A stretch of 50,132 bases of DNA from a virus. The notes beneath the pieces were generated by a model that was given only the letters and a program-made list of their open reading frames with translations, was not told the DNA's origin and searched no databases. Shown here one piece after another: positions 2,694-50,132 of this stretch (position 1 is its first letter; each line of letters starts with the position of its first letter). The stretch is taken from positions 1 to 50,132 of the IMG/VR virus record IMGVR_UViG_3300036884_000045; one strand, written 5' to 3'. Made by a program: the position numbers and the translations under genes.

Positions 2694-2706
2694 GAGATAA
2701 AATTTC

Positions 2707-3735: not shown

Positions 3736-3748
3736 TTCAAACATTTAT

Positions 3749-3768: not shown

Positions 3769-3795
3769 AAATTTAATATTAAAGGAAAAATAAAC

Positions 3796-4230: not shown

Positions 4231-4245
4231 TCCAAAGGATTATAA

Positions 4246-4533
4246 ATGATAACCTTTGAATTATTCGGGATTGTAAAATCTAAAGGTAAAACTATAGCCG
4301 TTGGTGACAGCGGCTTATTTTCTACCGATAATAATAAAGTCATATCTAAATTAGATCAACTCGGATTCAAAAGAATCGAATCAATCACTCTTGAAACAAG
4401 CGAAAAAAAAGAGTCCGAGTTGGTCCTTAAATCAGAACTTGAAGTGCCAAAAGGTGTAACGTTTCCTATAGAAATGAAAATACCCGATGCACATAATAAA
4501 CCCATTAAAAAACCGAAAGGTAAGAAGAAATGA
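4246..4533 (+). CDS. Hypothetical 95-residue head-region protein
   Basis: Unrecognised. A small mixed alpha/beta protein with an acidic middle and a strongly basic tail ending in K-P-K-G-K-K-K. AAAGGATTATAA precedes the ATG, and the stop codon overlaps the next start (ATGA). The position between capsid and neck genes suggests a structural or assembly role. Confidence 0.55.
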   Translation: MITFELFGIVKSKGKTIAVGDSGLFSTDNNKVISKLDQLGFKRIESITLETSEKKESELVLKSELEVPKGVTFPIEMKIPDAHNKPIKKPKGKKK

Positions 4534-5396: not shown

Positions 5397-5400
5397 TAAT

Positions 5401-6537
5401 ATGAAAAATATAATTTTATTTGTAATGTTATTGAGTGGTCTTTTATTTGCACAAACAACACCAAGTGGATATACTGCCAATATCCATTTAAGAAAATGGG
5501 CTGATGGTGCGATACACCCATCGGGCGATAGTCTCAATGCTAATTTAGATGGTATCGATACTCTTTTAGGAAAGCATAGTAATGCTGTTTTAATTAAATC
5601 AGATAGAACAATTCATAGATATTCTACACTAAAATTAGCTGTTGCTGATGCTGATTCAGGAAGTGTTATTACATTATATCAGGGAGTTTACTCTGATTCC
5701 GTAACTGTTACAACACAAGGAATAACCATTAAGGGCATTTCAAAGGAATCTGTTTTAATTACGGGAGCACTATATATAACTGCTTCTTTTGGAGAATTAT
5801 CAAATGTTAAAATATCTGGAAACTTAACTTTTATAGGACAAATTTCTACTGCTTGTTATGTAGTTAATGATTGTAGACTTGAAAATAATGTAAATGTAGG
5901 ATTAGCAGGGATAGCAATAGCGAGCGATGTTGAGTTTAATAATTGTTATTTAGGTTCTGATGCTTCAACTTGGGCTGGAAGTTCAAAAACTTTTTATTTT
6001 AATACATCTATACAAAGAGCAATTTACTTTCACTGCTGTTACAGTTTCGCATGGCATGATAGTCAAGCATTTATTCTTAATGCATACTCACGAGTTGATT
6101 TACAAACATGTGATCTTGCTCTCTATGGTGTATATTTTACCGGAGGTACCGGCTATACTGTTCCAATACCAGAATTGGATGCGAATGGTGGGAGATTTCA
6201 GACTACTACTGGTGGGTATTCTAATAGTGGTTATTGTGTGATGGTTGCCAGAAATTGTGCATTTGGGTTTTCAAGCACAATTACTTTGAGCAATCATTTT
6301 CAAATTCAGTTAATGCAGTGTACTATAGCGGCTGGAGCACCCAACTCCACAATAATATGTAATTCTGCTTCTAACAATTTGCAGATAATAATGTGTTATG
6401 GGGTTATAAATTTTAGTAATATAACAGGAAGCGGTTTAGCTAATCTACACATACAAGACTGTATTTTTGGTTTTGCCAAACCGACTGGAATAGCAAATGA
6501 TGATAATAATGTGTGGAACTCTTACGTGGATTATTAA
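5401..6537 (+). CDS. Secreted right-handed beta-helix protein
   Basis: A 378-residue protein: signal peptide (residues 1-18, ending L-F-A before Gln), then a segment resembling phage fibre anchors (L-R-K-W-A-D-G-A-I-H-P near 30-40), then repeated short beta strands typical of pectate-lyase-like right-handed beta-helices (residues about 80-370). Such domains often bind or cut polysaccharide, but no catalytic set is visible. I chose the ATG at 5401 because it has AAGGAAGATAG upstream and begins the signal peptide; a TAC-rich upstream extension is unlikely. Confidence 0.65.
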   Translation: MKNIILFVMLLSGLLFAQTTPSGYTANIHLRKWADGAIHPSGDSLNANLDGIDTLLGKHSNAVLIKSDRTIHRYSTLKLAVADADSGSVITLYQGVYSDSVTVTTQGITIKGISKESVLITGALYITASFGELSNVKISGNLTFIGQISTACYVVNDCRLENNVNVGLAGIAIASDVEFNNCYLGSDASTWAGSSKTFYFNTSIQRAIYFHCCYSFAWHDSQAFILNAYSRVDLQTCDLALYGVYFTGGTGYTVPIPELDANGGRFQTTTGGYSNSGYCVMVARNCAFGFSSTITLSNHFQIQLMQCTIAAGAPNSTIICNSASNNLQIIMCYGVINFSNITGSGLANLHIQDCIFGFAKPTGIANDDNNVWNSYVDY

Positions 6538-6538
6538 C

Positions 6539-7441
6539 ATGAAAACAATAATTTTATTTATAGCATTATTCTCAATATCTATTTATAGCCAATCAGGATA
6601 TGGTTATGATTATGGAAATAATTATGGCGGAATTTCTATTGCTTTTACTGGTTCTGGGATGATACAAATAGGACAAACTGGTGTTCATAGTTTTGGATTA
6701 TCTTTAGATAAAACAGGAATAAACAGAGTACGAAGCTTAATTACTTCTGTTGCTGCACCAATAGTAATAACTTCTGCTAAATCAGTTATTGATTTTGTTT
6801 CAGAAGGTGCAGGCGGAAATGTTACCTCTGATGGTGGTGGAACTATAACAGCAAGGGGACTTGTTTGGGATTATTCAACAAACCCTATGCCCTCTGTAAC
6901 TTCATTTAAGGGAAAGACCATAGAACCGGGTACTACAGGTAGTTTCACAAACACAATGATTGAATTAGATACTACTCACACTTTTCGTTATAGGGCTTAT
7001 GCAACTAATTCGGCAGGTACTTCTTATGGAAATGATTCTACTTTTGCTATTAGAACTAATATACTTATTTATGATGCTTATTTATCAGGAGATGGAACAT
7101 CCATCAATGAAGATAGTCAGTTGGCAAACACTTTGAATTATAGTGGTATGTGGTATTGCGGGGGTGGAGTAATAACAAGTGATGCTTTTTCAGATATGAA
7201 TAATGACAACTATACATTGCAGTCGAATGTTGATGGTGTTGATATAACATTCTCCCCCTCTACAGTTGACCAAGTGCATGGAGATATTGCTATTGTTAGG
7301 CAGTCTTTTACTATCGGCACTTTTTCATTAGCATCAGCTAATATTCCCACTTGTGGAATCTTTGATGCAGACCATGCCCCAGATGATGTTCAAATTGATC
7401 TTAGGGTAATAATCACAAAGAAAGTGCCATATAACCCATGA
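6539..7441 (+). CDS. Secreted Ig/FN3-like repeat protein
   Basis: A 300-residue protein with a signal peptide ending in Y-S before Gln, a Gly/Tyr-rich segment (residues 20-32) and one Bacteroidota-type Ig/FN3-like unit (about 95-175) with T-A-R-G-L-V-W and Y-R-A-Y-A-T-N-S-A-G-T-S-Y-G. These repeats are common in secreted adhesins of Bacteroidota. The same module occurs without a signal peptide at 15384-15788. The start at 6539 is 1 bp after the previous stop codon and is chosen because it opens the signal peptide. Confidence 0.65.
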   Translation: MKTIILFIALFSISIYSQSGYGYDYGNNYGGISIAFTGSGMIQIGQTGVHSFGLSLDKTGINRVRSLITSVAAPIVITSAKSVIDFVSEGAGGNVTSDGGGTITARGLVWDYSTNPMPSVTSFKGKTIEPGTTGSFTNTMIELDTTHTFRYRAYATNSAGTSYGNDSTFAIRTNILIYDAYLSGDGTSINEDSQLANTLNYSGMWYCGGGVITSDAFSDMNNDNYTLQSNVDGVDITFSPSTVDQVHGDIAIVRQSFTIGTFSLASANIPTCGIFDADHAPDDVQIDLRVIITKKVPYNP

Positions 7442-7463
7442 TAAATAAAGCAGGTAAAAGAAA

Positions 7464-8027
7464 TTGAACAAATACATTTGTACACAAGCGGAAGTAAAAG
7501 AACTACTGCAAATAACAGCAACGACATGGGACACCATGATAACGAATTTACTTCCTGTTATTGCAAAACAGATTACCGCTTATTGTAAAAATACATTTGT
7601 GTCTGATAAAGTTAAACTTACTTCATTAGATTTAGTATTTGCCGCAACAGCGAAAACAATTACGGGCGATACCAGCCTTGATAATTTTACAACAGGATAT
7701 TTTTACGCAGACGATGTGATTTTAATTGAAGGCAGTATAAGGAATGACGGGGTTTATGAATTACAAACTGTTTTGAATAATGTACTCACTCTTAAATCTA
7801 CCGATACGATTAAAGATGAGGCTGTAAGCGATTTCATAGTTTCAATCCAAAGAATAGATTACCCGGGCGATCTTAAATTAGCTTTTGCAGATATAGTAAA
7901 ATCATTCATTGATGTTAACAGGGGCGTTCAACATTTCTCTTTAGCAGATTATTCGGTTACTTATTTTAATAGTAATATCTCAGATTTCGCAAAAGGTATA
8001 TTAAATAATTATAGGAGGATATTTTAA
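7464..8027 (+). CDS. Head-tail connector (gp6-like adaptor)
   Basis: A 187-residue protein whose N-terminus (a V-K-E-L-L-Q-I-T stretch, W-D-T-M-I-T-N-L-L, then A-Y-C-K-N-T-F near residue 45) matches the gp6/HK97 gp6-like adaptor pattern, here with an extra beta insert (about 60-110). Adaptors form a ring under the portal. The start is TTG with AGGTAAAAG upstream. The C-terminus is helical (F-A-K-G-I-L-N-N-Y-R-R). Confidence 0.68.
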   Translation: MNKYICTQAEVKELLQITATTWDTMITNLLPVIAKQITAYCKNTFVSDKVKLTSLDLVFAATAKTITGDTSLDNFTTGYFYADDVILIEGSIRNDGVYELQTVLNNVLTLKSTDTIKDEAVSDFIVSIQRIDYPGDLKLAFADIVKSFIDVNRGVQHFSLADYSVTYFNSNISDFAKGILNNYRRIF

Positions 8028-8028
8028 C

Positions 8029-8154
8029 ATGGCAAAAAGAATCAAATCAGGCACTTTTAAGACTTCTTACAAGAACGGAAAGAAAGTAGTTACCGGAATC
8101 TCAAAGAAGACTGGCAAAAGAATAGTTCATCATATAGCCAAAAAAGGAAAATAA
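8029..8154 (+). CDS. Lys-rich 41-residue protein
   Basis: Unrecognised. The ATG at 8029 follows a strong AGGAGG site. Nearly two fifths of the residues are Lys, Arg or His, and there are no acidic residues, so DNA or RNA contact is plausible. It lies between the connector and head-closure genes, next to a second basic mini-protein with the same M-A-K beginning. Confidence 0.55.
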   Translation: MAKRIKSGTFKTSYKNGKKVVTGISKKTGKRIVHHIAKKGK

Positions 8155-8158
8155 TATC

Positions 8159-8287
8159 ATGGCAAAAACTAAAAGTTCAAGAAAAAAGAAAAGTAGTGGC
8201 GGTGGTAAGTCAAGATTTGCCGCAACGATAAGGAAAAACCCAAGTAAATTCCCCGCCAAGACAGTTGCATGGGCTAAGAAACATTGA
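8159..8287 (+). CDS. Lys/Ser-rich 42-residue protein
   Basis: Unrecognised. Begins M-A-K-T-K, has an R-K-K-K-S-S-G-G-G-K linker and a short helix (F-P-A-K-T-V-A-W-A-K-K-H). No acidic residues. The stop codon overlaps the TTG start of the head-closure gene. It may be packaged in the head or help neck assembly; there is no direct evidence for either. Confidence 0.5.
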   Translation: MAKTKSSRKKKSSGGGKSRFAATIRKNPSKFPAKTVAWAKKH

Positions 8288-8607
8288 AGATCCCCTATAA
8301 CATAACATTTGCTTTTCAATCCGTTACCTCCGTAAGTGATAACATGGGGGGAACTACAGACACGTGGGCGACTGTTTCAGGTTTAAGCGCCGTACAGGGT
8401 CATCACAGAGAATTAAATGCAAACGAAATCTTTGCAAATGAAAAGAAAGGATTTAAGGCATTTGATATGTTCTATTGTGATTATATTTCCTCAGTAACAG
8501 ACACTTATCAAATCCTGTTTAATGGCGGCGTTTATAAAATACAGAATGTAAATGATCCTCATGGGATGCATTTATTTTTACAAATAGATACTCTAAAAAA
8601 TAGTTGA
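8284..8607 (+). CDS. Head-tail joining (head-closure) protein
   Basis: A 107-residue beta-rich protein matching the phage head-tail joining family (SPP1 gp16 / HK97 gp7-like): D-N-M-G-G-T-T-D-T-W near residues 20-29, then R-E-L-N-A-N-E, and V-Y-K-I-Q-N-V-N-D near the end. It would seal the connector after packaging. The TTG start overlaps the preceding stop codon. Confidence 0.75.
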   Translation: MKIPYNITFAFQSVTSVSDNMGGTTDTWATVSGLSAVQGHHRELNANEIFANEKKGFKAFDMFYCDYISSVTDTYQILFNGGVYKIQNVNDPHGMHLFLQIDTLKNS

Positions 8608-8623
8608 TTAAGGATAATTGAAT

Positions 8624-8956
8624 ATGGCAGATAATATAGAAACACACGCAGAGCAAGAAGTTCATGCAAAAGAAAGTGGGTATAGAATATTACAATCTTG
8701 GCACATATATCTAATGATCGCAGTAATGCTTGTTGGCTTTGGTGTCACTTGGGGAACTACTACAAGCGCCATAACTACTTTAGAAAATAGAGTAACAAAA
8801 ACGGAAGTAAATATTAACGAGATGCAGAAGGAATTGCCCACACAAGCAGTTCTTGTTTCTAAAATAGAAACATTAACCAAACAAGTTGATGTTTTATCAG
8901 ACAAGTTAGATAGAATCTTAATGAATACTTACGGACAAAAAGGAGTAAGAAAATGA
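8624..8956 (+). CDS. Membrane/coiled-coil lysis accessory protein
   Basis: A 110-residue protein with one transmembrane helix (about 28-50) followed by a long coiled coil (55-100), the plan of XhlA-like accessory lysis proteins. I start at ATG 8624 after AAGGATAATTG; an upstream TTG adds two residues. It opens the lysis cassette, and its stop codon overlaps the next small membrane protein. Confidence 0.6.
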   Translation: MADNIETHAEQEVHAKESGYRILQSWHIYLMIAVMLVGFGVTWGTTTSAITTLENRVTKTEVNINEMQKELPTQAVLVSKIETLTKQVDVLSDKLDRILMNTYGQKGVRK

Positions 8957-9030
8957 GCATAACAACGGTTTATATATTCATAGGAATAATAATTTTAGTA
9001 ACACTGTATCAAATATTTAGAAAAAAATAA
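8953..9030 (+). CDS. 25-residue membrane peptide
   Basis: One hydrophobic helix ending in R-K-K. ATGA overlap with the upstream gene and AAGGAGTAAGAAA before the start support translation. Its place between the coiled-coil membrane protein and the putative holin suggests a lysis role, perhaps a small antiholin-like or accessory peptide. Confidence 0.45.
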   Translation: MSITTVYIFIGIIILVTLYQIFRKK

Positions 9031-9042
9031 AAGGAGTCCAAA

Positions 9043-9309
9043 ATGTCACTTTTCGGAAAGATAAATTGGTTGGATGTATTGAAGGGATTCATAGTAGGCG
9101 TAGGCACTGTAGTCTTAACAGGGGTTTATACAGCGTTACAATCCGGCACGCTTCCAACGTTAGCACAACTTGAAACTTTGGGATTGACTGGGCTCGGTGC
9201 GGGATTAGCTTATTTACTCAAAAATATATTTAGTAATAATGCCGGAGTTCCTTTAGCAAAAGACGTTCCCGCAAGTACAACGGTTGGCGAATTAACTAAT
9301 AAAGTTTAA
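9043..9309 (+). CDS. Putative holin
   Basis: An 88-residue protein with two hydrophobic segments (about 11-30 and 45-62) and polar ends, directly upstream of the lysozyme gene. Holins form membrane lesions that let the endolysin reach the cell wall and set lysis time. AAAGGAGTCC precedes the ATG. The family is not recognised; the call rests on topology and position. Between this gene and 9384 there is a weak hairpin (CCGGCT/AGCCGG). Confidence 0.6.
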   Translation: MSLFGKINWLDVLKGFIVGVGTVVLTGVYTALQSGTLPTLAQLETLGLTGLGAGLAYLLKNIFSNNAGVPLAKDVPASTTVGELTNKV

Positions 9310-28310: not shown

Positions 28311-29483
28311 TTGACCCATGCTTCTCTTTTTACGGGTTTTGGAATGTTTGACTATGCAGCAGAGAAAGCCGGTTACAAAAACATATTTCAGGTAGAGATA
28401 AATGAGTTTTGCCAAAAGTTATTAAATGTTCGCTATCCTGAAACAGACAAATATTTAGATATAAAGGAATTTGATGGAACAAAATACAGAGGACTTATTG
28501 ACGTTATTTCCGGTGGCTTCCCCTGTCAGCCCTTTAGCCAAGCAGGACAAAGAAAAGGGCGTGAAGATGAACGAGCCTTATTCCCGGAAGCACTTAGAGT
28601 TATTAGAGAAGTGTCACCCGAATGGCTACTTCTGGAAAATGTTTACGGACTCCTTAATATCCATGATGGAGACTACTTTCAAAACGAAATTGTTGCATCG
28701 TTGGAGAATGAAGGTTACTCGGTTCAACCGTATATTATTCCAGCTTCAGCCATCGGGGCGATCCACAGGAGGGATAGAATATGGATTATTGGGTACTCCA
28801 AGAGCGCAGGAAAGACCACGCAGCGAGAAGTTTTTGCAGAGAGAACAGGGGATAAAGAGGGTTCCAACTCCAAGCGAAGTAATAGATTTAATGAATCGGG
28901 GGCTTCTAAAAACTCCAAGCAGATTCGATGCAACGGTAGTGAGTGGAAAGAAAAATCCGACATCGGGAAATTCGGGAAGTTTAGCTCAGGAAATGAGTCA
29001 GGGGTTTCCGACAAGGTTATTGCCAACGATGAGAGCCGGATTAACGGGGGACATAACAGAGAATCGGAAAAACGACAAGAATCGGAATTTGGAAAAGGCT
29101 TTAGCGATGGAATTACTACCAACCCCGAAGAAACAAAATGCAAATTCGGAAGGATTGCACGGACAAGGGGGAATGGATTTACAAACACAAATTTCACTAC
29201 TACCCACACCGACATCACACGACAATCGGGACAGGGGGTCGATAGACGACCCGTGCATTCGGAGAAGAGTGGAATTAGGGAAGAATATAGATTTATCAAT
29301 GACAGTCAATTCCAAAGAGAATGGATTGAAGTTGCAAACCAAATTTGTGGAATGGATGCTGCACCTTCCACCGGATTACACAAATCCAGATATCGCAAAC
29401 AGCGACTTGAAGGTTTGGGAAACGGTATTCAATGGGAAATAGCCTGGACTTTCTTTGAATTGATTAAGGAGTTTTCAAATTGA
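28311..29483 (+). CDS. DNA (cytosine-5) methyltransferase
   Basis: A 390-residue enzyme. Motif I S-L-F-T-G-F-G-M-F-D near 5-14, motif IV G-G-F-P-C-Q-P-F-S near 67-75 with catalytic Cys, motif VI L-L-E-N-V near 107-111, motif VIII R-R-D-R-I-W-I near 152-158, motif X-like L-G-N-G-I-Q near 371-376. Residues about 163-325 are low-complexity and polar; this is the stretch that is open in a second frame (28474-29442). It likely protects phage DNA from host restriction. TTG start with AAGAAGGGGG upstream. Confidence 0.85.
   Translation: MTHASLFTGFGMFDYAAEKAGYKNIFQVEINEFCQKLLNVRYPETDKYLDIKEFDGTKYRGLIDVISGGFPCQPFSQAGQRKGREDERALFPEALRVIREVSPEWLLLENVYGLLNIHDGDYFQNEIVASLENEGYSVQPYIIPASAIGAIHRRDRIWIIGYSKSAGKTTQREVFAERTGDKEGSNSKRSNRFNESGASKNSKQIRCNGSEWKEKSDIGKFGKFSSGNESGVSDKVIANDESRINGGHNRESEKRQESEFGKGFSDGITTNPEETKCKFGRIARTRGNGFTNTNFTTTHTDITRQSGQGVDRRPVHSEKSGIREEYRFINDSQFQREWIEVANQICGMDAAPSTGLHKSRYRKQRLEGLGNGIQWEIAWTFFELIKEFSN
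28474..29442 (+). CDS. Overprinted protein inside the methyltransferase gene (LPTP-type)
   Basis: A 322-residue frame, offset from the methyltransferase frame, with its own AAAGGA before the ATG. It looks like a known phage protein type marked by repeated L-L-P-T-P (and G-T-P, K-T-P) motifs, an N-terminal S-P-V-S-P, S-R-K-H-L-E-L-L-E and a C-terminal F-V-E-W-M-L-H-L-P-P-D-Y-T. I recognise the family pattern from phage genomes, where it is often annotated as methyltransferase-related, but know no proven function. Both frames are intact over 969 bp. Confidence 0.55.
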   Translation: MEQNTEDLLTLFPVASPVSPLAKQDKEKGVKMNEPYSRKHLELLEKCHPNGYFWKMFTDSLISMMETTFKTKLLHRWRMKVTRFNRILFQLQPSGRSTGGIEYGLLGTPRAQERPRSEKFLQREQGIKRVPTPSEVIDLMNRGLLKTPSRFDATVVSGKKNPTSGNSGSLAQEMSQGFPTRLLPTMRAGLTGDITENRKNDKNRNLEKALAMELLPTPKKQNANSEGLHGQGGMDLQTQISLLPTPTSHDNRDRGSIDDPCIRRRVELGKNIDLSMTVNSKENGLKLQTKFVEWMLHLPPDYTNPDIANSDLKVWETVFNGK

Positions 29484-40164: not shown

Positions 40165-42177
40165 TTGCCCTCCCAAGAATCCATAGCGTTATCGAAACTT
40201 ACAACTGATAAAATCAATTCCCTGTTATTATTAAGGGACGAAACAGCAGATAAGCAATACCTTGCATGGGAGAATGAACTACTTAATACCTACAAGCGTT
40301 CTTTACTTGCAATCAAAGATCAAATCCGTGCCATGTATGAAAAGTATGGGGAATCGGTTACTTTATCAGAAATGCAGTCCTTCAATCGGTTAAAGAATCT
40401 TGAATTACAGATTACTAAAGAGATCAACACGTTAAATACTAATATCACTATCAGAACCAGAAAACAGTTAGGCAATTTCTTTGAATCTAATTATTATCAA
40501 ACGGGCTTTGCTATTGAATCAGGCTTGGGGATGGATTTAAGTTTTGGTTTGTTGAATCCTTCGGTTATCCAGGCGGCAGTTGTTAATCCTTACGATTGGG
40601 AAGGGAGATTGAAGCTATGGAATAATAAATTACTGTTGGATATTAAGCAGAACGTAACTGATGGATTAACACAAGGGAATGGATTAGTAAAGACTACTAA
40701 AAATATTCAAACCTCTTTTGAAACTAATCTGGGCAAAAGAGCAGCAGATAAAATAACACGCTCAAATATTTTAAGAGTAGTAAGAACCGAATCCACAAGG
40801 GCACAGGAAATAGGAAATGTCTCTGGATTTTCACAAGCTCAACAGGATGCAAGCGATTTAGGTTTTGAAACATTAAAAATATGGGATGCTACACTTGATA
40901 GTAGAACACGCCCGAATCATGGGGCTATGGATGGCAAGGCAGCCGATAGTGAAGGGATGTTTCACTTTACAACTATGGATGGGAATAAGATTCTTGTTGA
41001 GGCTCCGCATTTAACAAATACAACGGACGATATAAACTGTTTCCCTGAATATGTTAATGCCTTTTCAATCACCCCTATCAAAAAGGCATATAAACGATTC
41101 TATGAGGGTGAATTAGTTGAGATCACTACTCGAAGTGGAATAAAGCTCACCGGTTCCCCTAAACACCCAATACTTACCCCTGAAGGATGGATCGGCATAG
41201 GTTCTTTGAATAATGGGGATAATGTTTTGAAGTGTACTCTCAACAAGAATGTCGTTTCTTGCAACCCAAATATAAATAATATTCCATCCCGAATTAGTAA
41301 AGTTTTTGATCTTTCTTCTATCTTTTTCCCTTGTCAGCGGACAGGCGGGGTCTCTCAACAATTCCATGGCGACGGAACCGATGGCGATGTCGATATTGTA
41401 TTGGTTAAAGGCCTTTTGAGGGATCGCATTAAATCCTTTTTGAGCAAACCAGTCAAGAATATATTTCTCACCCTCGCCGACCTTGGAAAGGGTCTTTTGT
41501 TTTGTATGAGCCGAAAGACTCATTTCCTCAATAGTCCTAACCCTACCAGTACAAGCTTTATGAGCAGCCTCGACTTGGTGAAGCCTTTTCTTTTTAGACA
41601 TATTTTTCCATTTAAGAGATTCGCTCTCGGATTGAGTTCTGCGGGTAATGCCGTTTTTAGTGAGGATTCTTCTTATAACGGCACGGCTAATATTAAAAGT
41701 TTTAGCGATTTGATTTTCGGAAACACCAGAGATATAGTCTTTGATAATTTTAGACGAATTAAAGATTTCAAATTTACTCATATTATTTCTAAGAGTAAGT
41801 TGAGTACATTCTTTCGGGGTTCTCTTTTCAATACTATAGTCTCTCATAATTCTATCGACACACCCAGTGCTGATATTGAAAATTTTTGCAAGGTCTTTCC
41901 GGTAAGTGCCGGAATTGTAAAGACTGATAAAGTGGTTAATATTAGAAAGTTTTATTTTAGCGGGCATTTGTATAACCTTGAAACTGTTAATAATTATTAT
42001 CTTGCTGCTAATATACAAAAAGACAACGACAATATCAATTTCTTAATAGCGCATAATTGCCGCTGCAATTCAAGAGTTGAAATCAAAGGCTTAGAGCCTT
42101 CTGTACGCAGGGATAATGAAAATAAAACAGTCATCAAATATCAGACTTACGATAAATGGAAGGAAACATTAAAATGA
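40165..42177 (+). CDS. MuF-like minor head protein precursor with intein
   Basis: A 670-residue precursor. Extein residues 1-291 and 632-670 equal the 330-residue MuF protein at 112-1104 (about 88% identity). Residues 292-631 are an intein at the conserved N-C-R-C motif. Splicing would restore D-D-I-N-C-R-C, as in the empty allele D-R-I-N-C-R-C. This allele has family-typical residues R-T-E-S-T-R-A and D-S-R-T-R-P-N-H-G. TTG start as in the other copy. If splicing fails the head protein would be non-functional. Confidence 0.88.
   Translation: MPSQESIALSKLTTDKINSLLLLRDETADKQYLAWENELLNTYKRSLLAIKDQIRAMYEKYGESVTLSEMQSFNRLKNLELQITKEINTLNTNITIRTRKQLGNFFESNYYQTGFAIESGLGMDLSFGLLNPSVIQAAVVNPYDWEGRLKLWNNKLLLDIKQNVTDGLTQGNGLVKTTKNIQTSFETNLGKRAADKITRSNILRVVRTESTRAQEIGNVSGFSQAQQDASDLGFETLKIWDATLDSRTRPNHGAMDGKAADSEGMFHFTTMDGNKILVEAPHLTNTTDDINCFPEYVNAFSITPIKKAYKRFYEGELVEITTRSGIKLTGSPKHPILTPEGWIGIGSLNNGDNVLKCTLNKNVVSCNPNINNIPSRISKVFDLSSIFFPCQRTGGVSQQFHGDGTDGDVDIVLVKGLLRDRIKSFLSKPVKNIFLTLADLGKGLLFCMSRKTHFLNSPNPTSTSFMSSLDLVKPFLFRHIFPFKRFALGLSSAGNAVFSEDSSYNGTANIKSFSDLIFGNTRDIVFDNFRRIKDFKFTHIISKSKLSTFFRGSLFNTIVSHNSIDTPSADIENFCKVFPVSAGIVKTDKVVNIRKFYFSGHLYNLETVNNYYLAANIQKDNDNINFLIAHNCRCNSRVEIKGLEPSVRRDNENKTVIKYQTYDKWKETLK
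41113..41967 (-). CDS. Antisense homing-endonuclease-like gene inside the intein
   Basis: A 284-residue protein on the minus strand. Two helix-turn-helix units: Y-R-K-D-L-A-K-I-F-N-I-S near 22-33 and E-N-Q-I-A-K-T-F-N-I-S near 84-94, each followed by a T-x-R/K-T-x-x-E element. A Vsr/PD-(D/E)XK-like nuclease region follows: G-E-G-E-K-Y-I-L near 164-171, Y-N-I-D-I-A-I near 191-197, V-A-M-E-L near 200-204, G-W-N-I-I-Y-I-W near 228-235. ATG 41967 is the complement of intein His-310 and has AAGG 8 nt upstream; a longer start at 42018 lies close to the promoter. Codons are in exact register with the sense codons, so TTA, CTA and TCA never occur among about 18 Leu and 26 Ser. The usual His after the core is not obvious, so catalysis is unproven. 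Confidence 0.75.
   Translation of the reverse strand: MPAKIKLSNINHFISLYNSGTYRKDLAKIFNISTGCVDRIMRDYSIEKRTPKECTQLTLRNNMSKFEIFNSSKIIKDYISGVSENQIAKTFNISRAVIRRILTKNGITRRTQSESESLKWKNMSKKKRLHQVEAAHKACTGRVRTIEEMSLSAHTKQKTLSKVGEGEKYILDWFAQKGFNAIPQKAFNQYNIDIAIGSVAMELLRDPACPLTREKDRRKIKNFTNSGWNIIYIWVARNDILVESTLQNIIPIIQRTYADPSFRGKYWVFRGTGELYSTSSSDLN
42010..42038 (-). promoter_or_regulatory. Minus-strand promoter inside the intein
   Basis: On the minus strand TTGATA (42038-42033) and TATATT (42015-42010) are 17 bp apart, ending 42 bp before the antisense ATG at 41967. The boxes lie in the codons for A-N-I-Q-K-D-N-D-N-I-N, between splicing blocks F and G. Matches 5 of 6 at each box, the same layout as the promoter at 1871-1899. 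Confidence 0.6.
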
Positions 42178-42404
42178 TAGATCGTAAAATTGAATCCTTA
42201 ACATTCCCCGTATTAAGACAAATGAATCTCATAAACGAGAAGGAGTTGAGGGATTTGTTTATCGTTAATGATTTCAAGGAGATGAGAGCAGAAGGGTTAA
42301 CCGTTGAGGCGATAATTGAGATATGTTCACAAAAGAAATATAATAACCAGTATCTATCAAAATATATGATTAGGTATATTATTTATAAAAAGGGGTTATC
42401 GTGA
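42174..42404 (+). CDS. Hypothetical 76-residue protein (right copy)
   Basis: Same as 1101-1331. In this copy the alternative earlier start at 42156 is ATG rather than TTG, because the last divergent base lies there. Confidence 0.6.
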   Translation: MIDRKIESLTFPVLRQMNLINEKELRDLFIVNDFKEMRAEGLTVEAIIEICSQKKYNNQYLSKYMIRYIIYKKGLS

Positions 42405-42541
42405 CAAATTCTTTGTTGATAATCTCTCATATAATCTAACAGGCTACAGCTCCAAAGCCATTTAGACATTTGATAAGAGATTGCTTTTGCCCTCCTTATA
42501 TTTTTGCCATTAAACTTCCTCTTCTTTATCCTAGCCTTCAT
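42383..42541 (-). CDS. Basic 52-residue protein of reverse cassette (right copy)
   Basis: Same as 1310-1468, with the AAGGAGAAG ribosome site and the ATGA overlap with the upstream reverse gene. Confidence 0.5.
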   Translation of the reverse strand: MKARIKKRKFNGKNIRRAKAISYQMSKWLWSCSLLDYMRDYQQRICHDNPFL

Positions 42542-42696
42542 TTCTTCTCCTTAATCAGTTTCATTACAAAATCAGCAAGTCCCATAGCTCCCCTGGATAA
42601 GTTTATCAGATCAAACTCTTTAGAAGTTACCCGGAATTGTATTTGACAATCACGTCCGCCCTTGTGAGGGGTGATTATGCGTTTAATCTTTTCCAT
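42538..42696 (-). CDS. Ribbon-helix-helix-like regulator (right copy)
   Basis: Same as 1465-1623; middle gene of the reverse cassette. Confidence 0.45.
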   Translation of the reverse strand: MEKIKRIITPHKGGRDCQIQFRVTSKEFDLINLSRGAMGLADFVMKLIKEKK

Positions 42697-42907
42697 ATTC
42701 TTTTGTATAAAACTTAAATTCAAGTATAATCGTTTCAAATTCATCCGGTTTTCTTGGATTAAAAATCGGATATAAATCAAAATAAAAGAATTTCGTTAAA
42801 ATAAAACGCACTAACTTAAACAACAGTCCCTTACATAATACTTGCGCCTTGTTATATTTATAATCGCCACTAAAATATGTGTGGGAACCCAAAATTTGTC
42901 CTTCCAT
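42683..42907 (-). CDS. Hypothetical 74-residue protein of reverse cassette (right copy)
   Basis: Same as 1610-1834; first gene of the reverse cassette. Confidence 0.45.
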   Translation of the reverse strand: MEGQILGSHTYFSGDYKYNKAQVLCKGLLFKLVRFILTKFFYFDLYPIFNPRKPDEFETIILEFKFYTKEYGKD

Positions 42908-42943
42908 CGTCCTTCCTCTATAATTGTTTTTAATCCTACTTTT

Positions 42944-42995
42944 AATATACGAGAATGTATATCTAAAATCAATAGACTTTCTAAAATTATTAGAA
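42944..42995 (-). promoter_or_regulatory. Reverse cassette promoter and palindromes (right copy)
   Basis: Same as 1871-1922: TTGATT-17-TATATT on the minus strand with ATATAC/GTATAT and TTCTAA/TTAGAA palindromes. Confidence 0.55.
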
Positions 42996-43121
42996 TGATT
43001 TTATATAACCAAACACTTATTCTTTCGGTGTCGATATTTAGTATTTCCACGACAACAAAGGAAAGAGATTACGAAGAGAGAACTTCAACAAACACAGTCA
43101 AATCTAAACCATAAGGAATAT

Positions 43122-43766
43122 ATGGAAAAATTAACAAGTTTACCTACACCTGAATTATTTGCTTCAACTTACAAAGATCAAATCTTATATGTTGCTAAAG
43201 CAGATGAAAATGTCATTGTTGATAATAATGGCAAGTATATGCCAGTCGATAAGCATAACGCTGAAATGACAGCAAAGAAACTTGAAATAGAAAACCTCAA
43301 ATCTCAAAAAGACTCTACAGATGCTGAATTAACGAAGCTGAAAAAAGAGTTTAAGGATGTTGAGGGGTTTTCAGATGCCATTAAAAAACTACAGACAGAG
43401 AATGCCGAAAAAGATAAAGTTCTCGAATCAACTAAGAAATCTTATACCATCAAAGAAGCGGTAAAAGATGCTTATAGAGATTTAGGCGTTAATGCAGAAT
43501 ACTTGGATTATGTAATAGGTAAGGAAAACCCCGAACTCGAAAAGGTGGAACTGAAAGAAGGTAAATTTGTGATCGACACCGAAAAAGTTAAAACATTAAA
43601 AGAAAAATATAAAGCAGTAATCGGTATTACTACTGTTAAGGGCTTTACGCCTGATAATGGCAATATCGATACTTCCGGTGATGCTGAATTTAAGAAATAC
43701 AACGTCACTCAACAAATTGAATTAAAGAAAAAAGACCCGGAAACATATAAACGAGTTTTCGGATAG
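43122..43766 (+). CDS. Capsid scaffold protein (right copy)
   Basis: Identical translation to 2049-2693. Confidence 0.75.
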   Translation: MEKLTSLPTPELFASTYKDQILYVAKADENVIVDNNGKYMPVDKHNAEMTAKKLEIENLKSQKDSTDAELTKLKKEFKDVEGFSDAIKKLQTENAEKDKVLESTKKSYTIKEAVKDAYRDLGVNAEYLDYVIGKENPELEKVELKEGKFVIDTEKVKTLKEKYKAVIGITTVKGFTPDNGNIDTSGDAEFKKYNVTQQIELKKKDPETYKRVFG

Positions 43767-43779
43767 GAGATAAAATTTC

Positions 43780-44808
43780 ATGGCACTTCAAGCAACGGCA
43801 ATTACCAATATTTATGAACCAACAATATGGTCTAAATATTTCATAGAACTTACTACTCAAAAATCATTACTTATTCAATCAGGTATAGCGGGCACAGACC
43901 TGGAACTAACAGCGGCAGCCAACGAGGGCGGACGTGTTGTTAATATGCCTTTCTGGGATGATCTTCCACATGATACAGGTTCAACAACCAGATCAAAGGT
44001 CGCAACCGATACAGATGATGAAATCACACCGGCCGGAATTACATCCAATGAAGATATAGCAGTTAAAGAATTTAGAACACAGGATTTCCAGGTTGCCCCG
44101 ATAGTCAAATATGTGGCTGGTGACGATCCTGCAAATGTAATAGTTCAAAGATATGCAACATGGTGGAATAAAGAAGAGCAAAGACTTCTTCTACTTAAAT
44201 TAACAGGTGCTTTCCTTAATTCAACCATTTACGGAAACTTACAGAATGATATTTCCACAGGTGCACCTACAACTAATGCAGCTAATCTAATTTCAACAGA
44301 TGCAATTCTTGATACCCAGTTTCTTTTAGGCGATGCTTATGAGAAATTGACCGGTATTATAATGCACTCAGTAGTTTTCAAAAGATTAGCTAAACTTGAT
44401 TTGATTGATAACTTACCTGAGTCACAGCAAAGTCCATTGATTATGCCAACCTATCAGGGGAAGAAAATCCTTGTTGATGACGGTATGACTGTATATGATG
44501 GTACTACTTACAAAAAGTATTATACTTATTTATTCGGACAGGGAGCAATCGGAAGGGTAGATATACCTCTTCAATCCGGCGATCCCGAACTTGAATTATT
44601 CAGAAATCCTAAAGCTGGCGTTGGTGCTGGTATGTTGGATATAATTTCAAGACGTTATTTCATTTTACACCTTAGAGGAATCAAGTATTATGATTCTAAT
44701 ATGGCTGGTGTTTCTCCCTCAGATGCTGAGTTAGTTGATCCTACAAATTATACTCAGGTTTATTTAACCAAGAATATAAGAATCGCACGTTTGGTCACAA
44801 ACGGGTAA
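43780..44808 (+). CDS. Major capsid protein (right copy)
   Basis: Identical translation to 2707-3735; the hairpin after it recurs at 44822-44841. Confidence 0.88.
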   Translation: MALQATAITNIYEPTIWSKYFIELTTQKSLLIQSGIAGTDLELTAAANEGGRVVNMPFWDDLPHDTGSTTRSKVATDTDDEITPAGITSNEDIAVKEFRTQDFQVAPIVKYVAGDDPANVIVQRYATWWNKEEQRLLLLKLTGAFLNSTIYGNLQNDISTGAPTTNAANLISTDAILDTQFLLGDAYEKLTGIIMHSVVFKRLAKLDLIDNLPESQQSPLIMPTYQGKKILVDDGMTVYDGTTYKKYYTYLFGQGAIGRVDIPLQSGDPELELFRNPKAGVGAGMLDIISRRYFILHLRGIKYYDSNMAGVSPSDAELVDPTNYTQVYLTKNIRIARLVTNG

Positions 44809-44868
44809 TTCAAACATTTATGGGGTTGCATAAGCGACCCCAAATTTAATATTAAAGGAAAAATAAAC

Positions 44869-45303
44869 ATGGAAAAATCATTTAGTAGTATTGTAAATAA
44901 AGAAAAGCATGGATTAGGCGGAGTTGTTAAAACTCTCGCTTCTGCTTTTTCTGGCGATCTTGTTTTCGTAGTTAGTCCCGCAACCGTTACACCCGCCCCG
45001 AGGTCAACAGCATGGACAAGAACCGTAAAGGTTTATCTTAAAAATGCAGCTGGCGATATTCATACTTGGTTTAGCAAGGCCATTGCTACGGGTGTTTCTA
45101 TTGCAGATACCTCAACGGCCGGAGCCGCTACTATTCCGAGTACAACCCTTACCTTTATCGAGGGCGTGGCCACCGTGGTGGTTAGCGGAGACGCACAGGC
45201 ATGGCTTAATACAGAGACTGATACTTTGACGGTTCCACAAGCGACCATCTTGGGTTATACGGTGGCAGCGAAAACAAGTGTAGAAACCTTTACAACTCCT
45301 TAA
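44869..45303 (+). CDS. Probable decoration protein (right copy)
   Basis: Identical translation to 3796-4230, including the GC-richer codon use. Confidence 0.5.
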   Translation: MEKSFSSIVNKEKHGLGGVVKTLASAFSGDLVFVVSPATVTPAPRSTAWTRTVKVYLKNAAGDIHTWFSKAIATGVSIADTSTAGAATIPSTTLTFIEGVATVVVSGDAQAWLNTETDTLTVPQATILGYTVAAKTSVETFTTP

Positions 45304-45318
45304 TCCAAAGGATTATAA

Positions 45319-45606
45319 ATGATAACCTTTGAATTATTCGGGATTGTAAAATCTAAAGGTAAAACTATAGCCGTTGGTGACAGCGGCTTATTTTCTACCG
45401 ATAATAATAAAGTCATATCTAAATTAGATCAACTCGGATTCAAAAGAATCGAATCAATCACTCTTGAAACAAGCGAAAAAAAAGAGTCCGAGTTGGTCCT
45501 TAAATCAGAACTTGAAGTGCCAAAAGGTGTAACGTTTCCTATAGAAATGAAAATACCCGATGCACATAATAAACCCATTAAAAAACCGAAAGGTAAGAAG
45601 AAATGA
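45319..45606 (+). CDS. Hypothetical 95-residue protein (right copy)
   Basis: Identical translation to 4246-4533. Confidence 0.55.
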   Translation: MITFELFGIVKSKGKTIAVGDSGLFSTDNNKVISKLDQLGFKRIESITLETSEKKESELVLKSELEVPKGVTFPIEMKIPDAHNKPIKKPKGKKK

Positions 45607-46469
45607 AAAAGATAATATTTGCAATTTTAGTTTTAATTGGCTCGGTTATTGTAATGGGACAGGACAGGACAGTATTACCGAACACTCCTTTTTATAAAGA
45701 TACCCTATCGGCAAGCAGAGATACAATAGATGTTCTATTCTCTGATTATGGAGATAAAGAAACATTTACCTTTACAGCCTACACCACTACAGGAACGGAC
45801 ACAGTTTTAATTTATACCAAGTCCTTAGATGGTACTATCTGGGTAAGTAAGGCTTCTTTTGCAATTACCACTACTCCGGTTGAATATGGGATAGATGATC
45901 CGGAACCTACTGCAATAAGAGTTATAAGCACAAGTAACGATGCCTCGACTACCGTATTTGTATTGGCAGGTAAGAAAGGTTTAATAAATGATTATGGAGA
46001 AACTTCAACCACTACAGTAACGATAGATCCCCCAACAGGTGGATTTGCTACAAATAATAAACTTGATTCTGCTGTAACCATATTAAAGGCACCCCTTGAC
46101 ACAACCGGCAATTATGCAAGGAGTATAATCAAGGCTGATTTGGATAGTCTTAACGTTGTGAATATTTGTTTAGTAGATTCTGCTAAAGGCGACACCCTTA
46201 CAACTGCAGGACTTATACATCAGATAAATATTGCATCATTAGGAATATTGCATTGGTACATATACACCCTCTACTCTGATAGTGGGTATTATCATAAGGC
46301 TACTAAATGGGGTGGAAATGTTTTTGCAAGTTTACCCCCTGTGATGCCAGCATTGGGTAGCTTTACATCTGAAAAATTAGATCCTGCACAATTCATTTAT
46401 GTTGATTATTTGAAAAGCGGAATTCATAATGGCAGCCAAATAATATATGTACAAATACAAGGAAGATAG
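45603..46469 (+). CDS. Signal-peptide protein (right copy)
   Basis: Identical translation to 4530-5396. Confidence 0.65.
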   Translation: MKKIIFAILVLIGSVIVMGQDRTVLPNTPFYKDTLSASRDTIDVLFSDYGDKETFTFTAYTTTGTDTVLIYTKSLDGTIWVSKASFAITTTPVEYGIDDPEPTAIRVISTSNDASTTVFVLAGKKGLINDYGETSTTTVTIDPPTGGFATNNKLDSAVTILKAPLDTTGNYARSIIKADLDSLNVVNICLVDSAKGDTLTTAGLIHQINIASLGILHWYIYTLYSDSGYYHKATKWGGNVFASLPPVMPALGSFTSEKLDPAQFIYVDYLKSGIHNGSQIIYVQIQGR

Positions 46470-46473
46470 TAAT

Positions 46474-47610
46474 ATGAAAAATATAATTTTATTTGTAATG
46501 TTATTGAGTGGTCTTTTATTTGCACAAACAACACCAAGTGGATATACTGCCAATATCCATTTAAGAAAATGGGCTGATGGTGCGATACACCCATCGGGCG
46601 ATAGTCTCAATGCTAATTTAGATGGTATCGATACTCTTTTAGGAAAGCATAGTAATGCTGTTTTAATTAAATCAGATAGAACAATTCATAGATATTCTAC
46701 ACTAAAATTAGCTGTTGCTGATGCTGATTCAGGAAGTGTTATTACATTATATCAGGGAGTTTACTCTGATTCCGTAACTGTTACAACACAAGGAATAACC
46801 ATTAAGGGCATTTCAAAGGAATCTGTTTTAATTACGGGAGCACTATATATAACTGCTTCTTTTGGAGAATTATCAAATGTTAAAATATCTGGAAACTTAA
46901 CTTTTATAGGACAAATTTCTACTGCTTGTTATGTAGTTAATGATTGTAGACTTGAAAATAATGTAAATGTAGGATTAGCAGGGATAGCAATAGCGAGCGA
47001 TGTTGAGTTTAATAATTGTTATTTAGGTTCTGATGCTTCAACTTGGGCTGGAAGTTCAAAAACTTTTTATTTTAATACATCTATACAAAGAGCAATTTAC
47101 TTTCACTGCTGTTACAGTTTCGCATGGCATGATAGTCAAGCATTTATTCTTAATGCATACTCACGAGTTGATTTACAAACATGTGATCTTGCTCTCTATG
47201 GTGTATATTTTACCGGAGGTACCGGCTATACTGTTCCAATACCAGAATTGGATGCGAATGGTGGGAGATTTCAGACTACTACTGGTGGGTATTCTAATAG
47301 TGGTTATTGTGTGATGGTTGCCAGAAATTGTGCATTTGGGTTTTCAAGCACAATTACTTTGAGCAATCATTTTCAAATTCAGTTAATGCAGTGTACTATA
47401 GCGGCTGGAGCACCCAACTCCACAATAATATGTAATTCTGCTTCTAACAATTTGCAGATAATAATGTGTTATGGGGTTATAAATTTTAGTAATATAACAG
47501 GAAGCGGTTTAGCTAATCTACACATACAAGACTGTATTTTTGGTTTTGCCAAACCGACTGGAATAGCAAATGATGATAATAATGTGTGGAACTCTTACGT
47601 GGATTATTAA
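46474..47610 (+). CDS. Secreted beta-helix protein (right copy)
   Basis: Identical translation to 5401-6537. Confidence 0.65.
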   Translation: MKNIILFVMLLSGLLFAQTTPSGYTANIHLRKWADGAIHPSGDSLNANLDGIDTLLGKHSNAVLIKSDRTIHRYSTLKLAVADADSGSVITLYQGVYSDSVTVTTQGITIKGISKESVLITGALYITASFGELSNVKISGNLTFIGQISTACYVVNDCRLENNVNVGLAGIAIASDVEFNNCYLGSDASTWAGSSKTFYFNTSIQRAIYFHCCYSFAWHDSQAFILNAYSRVDLQTCDLALYGVYFTGGTGYTVPIPELDANGGRFQTTTGGYSNSGYCVMVARNCAFGFSSTITLSNHFQIQLMQCTIAAGAPNSTIICNSASNNLQIIMCYGVINFSNITGSGLANLHIQDCIFGFAKPTGIANDDNNVWNSYVDY

Positions 47611-47611
47611 C

Positions 47612-48514
47612 ATGAAAACAATAATTTTATTTATAGCATTATTCTCAATATCTATTTATAGCCAATCAGGATATGGTTATGATTATGGAAATAATTATGG
47701 CGGAATTTCTATTGCTTTTACTGGTTCTGGGATGATACAAATAGGACAAACTGGTGTTCATAGTTTTGGATTATCTTTAGATAAAACAGGAATAAACAGA
47801 GTACGAAGCTTAATTACTTCTGTTGCTGCACCAATAGTAATAACTTCTGCTAAATCAGTTATTGATTTTGTTTCAGAAGGTGCAGGCGGAAATGTTACCT
47901 CTGATGGTGGTGGAACTATAACAGCAAGGGGACTTGTTTGGGATTATTCAACAAACCCTATGCCCTCTGTAACTTCATTTAAGGGAAAGACCATAGAACC
48001 GGGTACTACAGGTAGTTTCACAAACACAATGATTGAATTAGATACTACTCACACTTTTCGTTATAGGGCTTATGCAACTAATTCGGCAGGTACTTCTTAT
48101 GGAAATGATTCTACTTTTGCTATTAGAACTAATATACTTATTTATGATGCTTATTTATCAGGAGATGGAACATCCATCAATGAAGATAGTCAGTTGGCAA
48201 ACACTTTGAATTATAGTGGTATGTGGTATTGCGGGGGTGGAGTAATAACAAGTGATGCTTTTTCAGATATGAATAATGACAACTATACATTGCAGTCGAA
48301 TGTTGATGGTGTTGATATAACATTCTCCCCCTCTACAGTTGACCAAGTGCATGGAGATATTGCTATTGTTAGGCAGTCTTTTACTATCGGCACTTTTTCA
48401 TTAGCATCAGCTAATATTCCCACTTGTGGAATCTTTGATGCAGACCATGCCCCAGATGATGTTCAAATTGATCTTAGGGTAATAATCACAAAGAAAGTGC
48501 CATATAACCCATGA
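47612..48514 (+). CDS. Secreted Ig/FN3-like protein (right copy)
   Basis: Identical translation to 6539-7441. Confidence 0.65.
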   Translation: MKTIILFIALFSISIYSQSGYGYDYGNNYGGISIAFTGSGMIQIGQTGVHSFGLSLDKTGINRVRSLITSVAAPIVITSAKSVIDFVSEGAGGNVTSDGGGTITARGLVWDYSTNPMPSVTSFKGKTIEPGTTGSFTNTMIELDTTHTFRYRAYATNSAGTSYGNDSTFAIRTNILIYDAYLSGDGTSINEDSQLANTLNYSGMWYCGGGVITSDAFSDMNNDNYTLQSNVDGVDITFSPSTVDQVHGDIAIVRQSFTIGTFSLASANIPTCGIFDADHAPDDVQIDLRVIITKKVPYNP

Positions 48515-48536
48515 TAAATAAAGCAGGTAAAAGAAA

Positions 48537-49100
48537 TTGAACAAATACATTTGTACACAAGCGGAAGTAAAAGAACTACTGCAAATAACAGCAACGACAT
48601 GGGACACCATGATAACGAATTTACTTCCTGTTATTGCAAAACAGATTACCGCTTATTGTAAAAATACATTTGTGTCTGATAAAGTTAAACTTACTTCATT
48701 AGATTTAGTATTTGCCGCAACAGCGAAAACAATTACGGGCGATACCAGCCTTGATAATTTTACAACAGGATATTTTTACGCAGACGATGTGATTTTAATT
48801 GAAGGCAGTATAAGGAATGACGGGGTTTATGAATTACAAACTGTTTTGAATAATGTACTCACTCTTAAATCTACCGATACGATTAAAGATGAGGCTGTAA
48901 GCGATTTCATAGTTTCAATCCAAAGAATAGATTACCCGGGCGATCTTAAATTAGCTTTTGCAGATATAGTAAAATCATTCATTGATGTTAACAGGGGCGT
49001 TCAACATTTCTCTTTAGCAGATTATTCGGTTACTTATTTTAATAGTAATATCTCAGATTTCGCAAAAGGTATATTAAATAATTATAGGAGGATATTTTAA
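48537..49100 (+). CDS. Head-tail connector (right copy)
   Basis: Identical translation to 7464-8027, TTG start. Confidence 0.68.
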   Translation: MNKYICTQAEVKELLQITATTWDTMITNLLPVIAKQITAYCKNTFVSDKVKLTSLDLVFAATAKTITGDTSLDNFTTGYFYADDVILIEGSIRNDGVYELQTVLNNVLTLKSTDTIKDEAVSDFIVSIQRIDYPGDLKLAFADIVKSFIDVNRGVQHFSLADYSVTYFNSNISDFAKGILNNYRRIF

Positions 49101-49101
49101 C

Positions 49102-49227
49102 ATGGCAAAAAGAATCAAATCAGGCACTTTTAAGACTTCTTACAAGAACGGAAAGAAAGTAGTTACCGGAATCTCAAAGAAGACTGGCAAAAGAATAGTT
49201 CATCATATAGCCAAAAAAGGAAAATAA
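49102..49227 (+). CDS. Lys-rich 41-residue protein (right copy)
   Basis: Same as 8029-8154. Confidence 0.55.
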   Translation: MAKRIKSGTFKTSYKNGKKVVTGISKKTGKRIVHHIAKKGK

Positions 49228-49231
49228 TATC

Positions 49232-49360
49232 ATGGCAAAAACTAAAAGTTCAAGAAAAAAGAAAAGTAGTGGCGGTGGTAAGTCAAGATTTGCCGCAACG
49301 ATAAGGAAAAACCCAAGTAAATTCCCCGCCAAGACAGTTGCATGGGCTAAGAAACATTGA
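49232..49360 (+). CDS. Lys/Ser-rich 42-residue protein (right copy)
   Basis: Same as 8159-8287. Confidence 0.5.
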   Translation: MAKTKSSRKKKSSGGGKSRFAATIRKNPSKFPAKTVAWAKKH

Positions 49361-49680
49361 AGATCCCCTATAACATAACATTTGCTTTTCAATCCGTTAC
49401 CTCCGTAAGTGATAACATGGGGGGAACTACAGACACGTGGGCGACTGTTTCAGGTTTAAGCGCCGTACAGGGTCATCACAGAGAATTAAATGCAAACGAA
49501 ATCTTTGCAAATGAAAAGAAAGGATTTAAGGCATTTGATATGTTCTATTGTGATTATATTTCCTCAGTAACAGACACTTATCAAATCCTGTTTAATGGCG
49601 GCGTTTATAAAATACAGAATGTAAATGATCCTCATGGGATGCATTTATTTTTACAAATAGATACTCTAAAAAATAGTTGA
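49357..49680 (+). CDS. Head-tail joining protein (right copy)
   Basis: Identical translation to 8284-8607. Confidence 0.75.
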   Translation: MKIPYNITFAFQSVTSVSDNMGGTTDTWATVSGLSAVQGHHRELNANEIFANEKKGFKAFDMFYCDYISSVTDTYQILFNGGVYKIQNVNDPHGMHLFLQIDTLKNS

Positions 49681-49696
49681 TTAAGGATAATTGAAT

Positions 49697-50029
49697 ATGG
49701 CAGATAATATAGAAACACACGCAGAGCAAGAAGTTCATGCAAAAGAAAGTGGGTATAGAATATTACAATCTTGGCACATATATCTAATGATCGCAGTAAT
49801 GCTTGTTGGCTTTGGTGTCACTTGGGGAACTACTACAAGCGCCATAACTACTTTAGAAAATAGAGTAACAAAAACGGAAGTAAATATTAACGAGATGCAG
49901 AAGGAATTGCCCACACAAGCAGTTCTTGTTTCTAAAATAGAAACATTAACCAAACAAGTTGATGTTTTATCAGACAAGTTAGATAGAATCTTAATGAATA
50001 CTTACGGACAAAAAGGAGTAAGAAAATGA
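49697..50029 (+). CDS. Lysis accessory membrane protein (right copy)
   Basis: Identical translation to 8624-8956. Confidence 0.6.
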   Translation: MADNIETHAEQEVHAKESGYRILQSWHIYLMIAVMLVGFGVTWGTTTSAITTLENRVTKTEVNINEMQKELPTQAVLVSKIETLTKQVDVLSDKLDRILMNTYGQKGVRK

Positions 50030-50103
50030 GCATAACAACGGTTTATATATTCATAGGAATAATAATTTTAGTAACACTGTATCAAATATTTAGAAAAAAA
50101 TAA
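50026..50103 (+). CDS. 25-residue membrane peptide (right copy)
   Basis: Same as 8953-9030. Confidence 0.45.
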   Translation: MSITTVYIFIGIIILVTLYQIFRKK

Positions 50104-50115
50104 AAGGAGTCCAAA

Positions 50116-50132
50116 ATGTCACTTTTCGGAAA
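50116..50132 (+). CDS. Putative holin, 5' fragment cut by the window edge
   Basis: First 17 bases of the gene seen complete at 9043-9309; the start codon and AAAGGAGTCC site are present. Confidence 0.6.

Follow-up and report, generated by a model that had tools for sequence, protein, structure and literature searches.

The window analysed here, a stretch of 50,132 nucleotides of phage DNA, shows the usual gene order of terminase, portal, MuF and capsid. MuF is the phage Mu protein F-like minor head protein. In this record the MuF gene contains an intein, and the DNA strand opposite the intein bears a second gene. The features of the sense strand are:

40165–42177, plus strand: MuF open reading frame with the intein (Pfam PF04233, E = 4e-10; PHROG head proteins)
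40165–41037, plus strand: N-extein of MuF
41038–42057, plus strand: intein of 340 residues, Cys1 to His-Asn and followed by Cys+1 (sequence; PF14890, 2.4e-5; TIGR01445, 2.7e-4)
41158–41178, plus strand: block B region, PKH43PIL (sequence); its complement encodes the nuclease C-terminal motif YWVFRG
42058–42177, plus strand: C-extein of MuF

The opposite strand carries the following:

41967–41113, minus strand: putative homing-endonuclease gene of 284 codons, from ATG at 41967–41965 to the stop codon at 41115–41113 (open reading frame; homologs in 132 further loci; AlphaFold2 model)
41839–41940, minus strand: helix-turn-helix unit 1, nuclease residues 10–43 (HTH_7, 9.5e-9; AlphaFold2 helices)
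41656–41757, minus strand: helix-turn-helix unit 2, nuclease residues 71–104 (HTH_23, 7.9e-5; AlphaFold2 helices)
41158–41475, minus strand: Vsr/DUF559/MTES_1575-like nuclease core, residues 165–270 (profile matches, AlphaFold2)
41976–41979, minus strand: Shine-Dalgarno-like AAGG, 8 nt before the antisense ATG and within the complement of block F (YNLE)
42010–42038, minus strand: promoter-like site TTGATA-17-TATATT (10 of 12 positions), 43 bp upstream of the antisense ATG; a weak match

An earlier note, made from the letters of this DNA alone, had described the sense frame as a complete intein without an endonuclease domain in its middle, and both statements hold. Cys1, the block B histidine (His43 at 41164–41166, within TGSPKHPIL), the penultimate histidine, the C-terminal asparagine and Cys+1 are all present, and AlphaFold2 predicts an all-beta, Hint-type fold for the termini (residues 1–70 and about 290–320, pLDDT 84–96). 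Residues 126–289, on the other hand, are predicted to be disordered (pLDDT <50), and searches of Pfam, TIGRFAM and PHROG yielded no match of the sense middle to endonuclease families, so that the in-frame endonuclease domain found between blocks B and F of bifunctional inteins is lacking here. The arrangement is not that of a split intein in a fractured gene either: a single sense frame is open throughout 40165–42177, and, just as the note had proposed, one uninterrupted intein hosts the antisense gene.

The coordinates given in that note were all correct, and the sequence confirms its 284-codon minus-strand gene, which runs from block F through block B: the antisense ATG is the complement of intein His310 and the stop codon overlies intein Leu26. 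The codon boundaries of the two strands coincide, and each nuclease codon is therefore the exact reverse complement of an intein codon. As a consequence of this register the nuclease can avoid sense stops through synonymous choice alone, that is by not using TTA, CTA and TCA. In fact, none of these triplets occurs among its 18 leucine and 26 serine codons (P ~5e-10, calculated from the codon usage of the genome). In the same register, antisense stops number 24 in the 291 codons of the N-extein versus 0 in the 284 overlapped codons, and a chance origin of the antisense reading frame is excluded. A longer antisense reading of 301 codons starts from a TTG, but it is the ATG that is preceded by the Shine-Dalgarno-like site.

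Open reading frames in the codon-complement register are common opposite GC-rich genes, and the sense gene of phage Sejanus has other long antisense stretches, which might suggest that the antisense frame is a by-product of the codon composition of the intein and that the minus strand encodes nothing. Such an explanation has next to no chance of being right, since the window has a GC content of 36% and its other genes contain 25–32 antisense stops in this register. It is further contradicted by nuclease homologs in the databases, by a free-standing relative, by the high confidence of the structural model (pLDDT 91) and by the codon-position test detailed below, which refutes it with antisense wobble in 27 of 27 pairs.

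The note had also assigned two helix-turn-helix units and a Vsr-like core to the minus-strand protein, a reading that it held would fall if no nuclease homologs existed. The two units and the core are recovered by matches to HTH_7, HTH_23 and MTES_1575/DUF559/Vsr and by helices in the AlphaFold2 model, and homologs do exist. In Pfam, the protein encoded in the window matches HTH_7 (1.1e-8) and, weakly, the Vsr-like MTES_1575 (0.0043); among 20 family members, matches were obtained to MTES_1575 in eight, to DUF559 in four and to Vsr in one. Comparison of family profiles with the PDB retrieved the 'mobile intron protein' 3r3p (E = 1.7e-6 with profile A1; 3r3p_A at 4.6e-4 with profile A5), which we take to be the catalytic domain of the homing endonuclease I-Bth0305I, and the endonuclease-like protein 3hrl (1.3e-4). 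The AlphaFold2 model, calculated from a 53-sequence alignment, has a mean pLDDT of 91.3 and consists of helical N-terminal units and an alpha-beta nuclease core. The acidic active-site residues of EDxHD/Vsr-like nucleases are present, with E167, D193 and E202 invariant or nearly so in the 53-sequence alignment; the residue of 3r3p aligned to D193 is alanine. In the alignment, the position of the EDxHD active-site histidine corresponds to an invariant glutamine, Gln184, as in the DUF559-like chain 3hrl, which counts against the assignment. Top-ranked Foldseek matches in BFVD are viral endonucleases; a Foldseek search against the PDB gave no significant match to the antisense protein, probably because the chain is multi-domain. 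Identification of the antisense product as a helix-turn-helix protein with a predicted Vsr/DUF559-like nuclease core and as kin of I-Bth0305I is well supported at the level of sequence and model.

Relatives of the antisense protein were found in 137 phage records and, by a scan with narrower alignments, in 213 viral-contig stretches; a scan of the viral contigs with the single sequence had returned two identical copies only. The relatives include those in phages Aaphi23, Idiomarinaceae 1N2-2, Gordonia Vivi2, Klebsiella RCIP0015, Escherichia Snoke, Salmonella LSPA1, Vibrio H2 and Mycobacterium Sejanus. The set analysed comprised the window and 132 other loci, with nucleases falling into 58 clusters at 50% identity and GC contents of 35–70%. 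Frequent stop codons in the minus frame of homologous inteins, combined with a sense middle matching a known endonuclease, would have spoken against the arrangement according to the earlier note; instead, the sense register is free of stops across the nuclease match in 132 of the 133 loci, the other two antisense registers having on average 21 and 9 stops. The one locus that departs from this is a free-standing copy, adjacent to a MuF gene that has no intein. Antisense stops occur at 0.0002 per codon in intein middles versus 0.023 in exteins, and at 90 representative embedded loci only 2 codons causing a sense stop were observed where extein usage predicts 623. Nearly all inteins have splicing motifs at their two ends, Cys1 is conserved in 119 of 127 and the N|C junction almost throughout. 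In three loci (L035, L047 and L056) the automated call of the C-terminal junction lacks N|C at the expected place and NC follows only about 10 residues later, which may reflect a shifted or degenerate junction. Insertion is usually directly before the CRC motif of MuF. MuF is the intein host in the window and in most relatives (62 of the 75 exteins tested) but not in all, the others including VG15, minor capsid 2, deaminase and GH19 proteins. FoX3, which served as a control, shares the similarity in block B and lacks the antisense nuclease. In the annotated records inspected, the nuclease is annotated solely in Acinetobacter phages, as a hypothetical protein; annotation pipelines miss it elsewhere because it lies under a larger gene.

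The Acinetobacter phages provide a natural control. In Obolenskvirus phages MuF is devoid of an intein and the nuclease gene is free, convergent and located just downstream; in Acinetobacter phage BUCT629 (locus L134, 4007–5607; also L142) it overlaps the 3' end of the intein-less MuF gene. This free-standing nuclease uses TTA, CTA and TCA 12 times and its opposite register is full of stops. A nuclease freed from the intein does not keep the opposite strand open. It is possible that the free-standing gene represents an ancestral or an escaped form; a search for split-intein remnants beside it found none.

Which of the two strands is selected was addressed with 27 independent pairs, for which differences are given at sense positions 1/2/3. 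In the nuclease core they amount to.373/.157/.261, with the maximum at position 1, which is the antisense wobble position, and in the first 60 intein codons to.214/.103/.337, with the maximum at position 3. Of 1455 core codons with a single difference, 62% of the changes are synonymous in the antisense reading versus 23% expected, while the corresponding values for the sense reading are 26% and 23%. Antisense identity exceeds sense identity in all 27 pairs, and the switch of selection between the strands falls near the ends of the nuclease gene. The block B segment shows the least divergence of any overlapped segment at all codon positions (.133/.043/.216). This pattern means that the intein middle, while coding for the nuclease, is filler from the standpoint of MuF, and that block B serves both. 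It shows antisense selection in the middle of the intein and sense selection at its ends. The comparison of substitutions on both strands, which the earlier note had put forward, thus speaks for selection on the nuclease but leaves the sense middle almost without amino-acid constraint beyond staying open.

These values also bear on the proposal that the sense middle is a real domain, degenerate or of an unknown kind, and that the antisense similarity is its mirror image. The sense strand does conserve motifs of the type FHGD..D.E.EVV, and one PHROG head family extends across the intein. However, such motifs are the complement of YNxDxAxGxVAxE in the nuclease core, core substitutions are near neutral in the sense reading (26% vs 23%) and constrained in the antisense reading (62% vs 23%), and the sense middle has neither a confidently predicted fold (pLDDT <50 for residues 126–289) nor a match to a sense endonuclease family. 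A sense-coded domain is therefore extremely improbable.

Signals for expression of the nuclease lie within the intein as well. The antisense start is situated about 21 residues before the intein end, in block F, and the family consensus upstream of it reads GGAGGTTATAAACATG. Shine-Dalgarno matches of at least 4 nt precede 77% of the starts, a value slightly favoured by the choice of start, versus 11% of internal codons. Two further measures are free of this start-choice bias: for the block F leucine, whose codon forms the Shine-Dalgarno sequence on the opposite strand, CTC is used 66 times versus 12.5 expected, and for the histidine facing the start, CAT is used in 49 of 60 cases versus 24 expected. 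A predicted Shine-Dalgarno and start signal is thus built into the complement of block F through biased synonymous codons, and the gene is predicted to be expressed. Promoter-like sites were found 8 times compared with 4.9 expected in shuffles. Between blocks F and G, the intein of the window is longer by about ten residues (IQKDNDNINF, 41998–42027), which are missing from the 15 aligned relatives, and the promoter-like site overlies this insert. The weakness of the promoter match would suit an unexpressed relic, whose reading frame persists merely since the intein must stay open. Still, an open sense frame requires no conservation of antisense amino acids, yet this conservation is strong in 27 of 27 pairs, and conservation of the Shine-Dalgarno sequence and of the start codons runs counter to sense codon usage, which makes a relic very hard to believe in.

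The record overlaps itself by 9 kb (1–9059 and 41074–50132), so that the genome is circular or terminally redundant; its size is about 41.07 kb including the intein and about 40.05 kb when the intein is absent. Different MuF alleles are found at the two ends, and their comparison adds two features:

112–1104, plus strand: second MuF allele at the other end of the same record, intein-less, with the empty target ...DRIN|CRCEDR... (also contigs L135 and L136)
40290–42156: diverged tract of about 847 bp around the intein, 747 bp upstream and 99 bp downstream (allele comparison)

All 170 allele differences reside inside the diverged tract and the remaining 8.2 kb of the overlap are identical. Over the stretches compared, four other contigs, two with the empty and two with the intein allele, are near-identical to the window except in the tract. 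The two-allele pattern derives from metagenome assemblies, in which shared assembly-graph edges could inflate the identity outside the tract, but the occurrence of the alleles on separate contigs speaks against such inflation. The tract is as homing with co-conversion of the flanks would leave it; recombination of another kind is a possible source. Elsewhere, inteins that are 98.3% and 92.5% identical occur in exteins just 68% and 57% identical, and lateral spread of the intein-nuclease unit is apparent here from sequence comparison. Other proteins of this phage include a RecT annealing protein and an RNase T-like exonuclease. Its C-5 cytosine DNA methylase gene (28311–29483) contains a further antisense reading frame of 191 codons (28724–29299, minus strand), for which no Pfam match was found.

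A nuclease that is real and yet serves another purpose for the phage, such as keeping out competing phages, packaging DNA or assembling heads, with mobility being incidental, deserves consideration, given that head genes are concerned in most cases (62 of 75 exteins are MuF). Phage nucleases can mediate exclusion, and cutting of intein-less MuF genes would in itself exclude rivals. Nevertheless, we consider another role quite unlikely: the intein-nuclease unit also occurs outside MuF, in a deaminase gene among others, lateral spread and a tract centred on the insertion site fit homing, and the nuclease is related to an intron homing endonuclease.

It is highly probable, then, that the window contains a mobile intein of phage head genes with a homing-endonuclease gene on its antisense strand; splicing, expression, the cleavage site and the homing event are what we infer for it. 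The nuclease gene would sit within the loop into which an in-frame endonuclease is fused in canonical inteins. From the sense strand a single MuF-intein precursor would be produced, whose two terminal segments, folded as the Hint domain, would splice out the intein together with its filler middle, for which the absence of stops would be the sole sense requirement. The antisense strand would give rise to the two-HTH Vsr/DUF559-like nuclease from a ribosome-binding site in the complement of block F. In MuF genes that lack the intein, this nuclease may cut at the conserved N|CRC codons; an intein-bearing copy would then serve as the repair template, and the intein would be installed with flanking DNA. 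With somewhat less assurance we regard it as likely that the family constitutes a whole unrecognised intein class, characterized by an antisense in-register homing endonuclease with its ribosome-binding site and start in synonymous codons of block F and its C-terminus in block B.

Canonical bifunctional inteins, which contain in-frame LAGLIDADG or HNH domains, resemble this element in that Hint splicing segments form the ends, the insertion targets a conserved codon within a conserved gene, the information for the endonuclease is placed between blocks B and F, and homing is predicted. In contrast to them, the endonuclease of this element is not part of the intein polypeptide; a gene of its own specifies it from the opposite strand, starting in block F and overlapping block B. 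Dassa et al. are said to have described, in 2009, fractured genes with split inteins and free-standing Vsr-like endonucleases. These have in common with our system a related nuclease fold, inteins and phage genes, but here the intein is one uninterrupted reading frame that encloses the nuclease gene in antisense orientation and codon register. Likeness to EDxHD/Vsr-like homing endonucleases (I-Bth0305I, 3r3p; Taylor et al. 2011, cited in PMC3943268) extends to profile homology of the catalytic domain, a modular build of DNA-binding region and nuclease core, and phage origin. I-Bth0305I lies in a group I intron, whereas the nuclease described here resides in an intein, has an invariant glutamine at the histidine position and possesses two N-terminal helix-turn-helix units. 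The ShiLan insertion, an HNH endonuclease hidden on the same strand without a splicing domain (PMC11855218), likewise places a homing nuclease in another frame of a stop-free in-frame insertion into a phage gene; our nuclease is on the opposite strand and splicing blocks are present. Antisense His-Cys homing-endonuclease genes within self-splicing elements are known from group I introns of nuclear rDNA (PMC9548176), which are RNA introns of a non-coding gene and, unlike the element studied here, involve no double protein coding. A group I intron with an antisense endonuclease gene was rejected for our locus, as 40500–42700 gave no Rfam match to a self-splicing intron RNA at E ≤ 1. The literature searched, with Gosselin et al. 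2025 (bioRxiv 10.1101/2025.01.02.630785) and Gorbalenya 1998 (PMC147447) left aside, holds no description of an antisense endonuclease gene in an intein. The two-strand arrangement thus appears to be previously undescribed, as the earlier note had supposed, but the window is not unique, its relatives mostly sharing the same organization.

If the class is real, few families of protein genes that overlap in fully antiparallel, in-register fashion would be larger or better supported. The class would represent a mobile element hidden by double coding, in that the host gene sees a self-removing insert and the opposite strand carries the machinery for spreading. More than 100 natural examples with 35–70% GC and one free-standing control would offer a quantitative test bed for two-strand protein evolution, including the question of why the codon-complement register is favoured. 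Furthermore, the family is a source of new candidate homing endonucleases and of inteins able to accommodate a long unstructured insert.

Some members deviate in their location. In Virus Rctr197k (L010, KX853510.1, 616–1968) a dCMP/cytidine deaminase is interrupted by an intein with the antisense nuclease, and the record labels the deaminase a head morphogenesis protein, apparently because of the intein. In L124, L132, L084, L069 and L114 the intein-nuclease unit occupies other sites or exteins, which points to retargeting, and in two of these the C+1 residue is serine or threonine.
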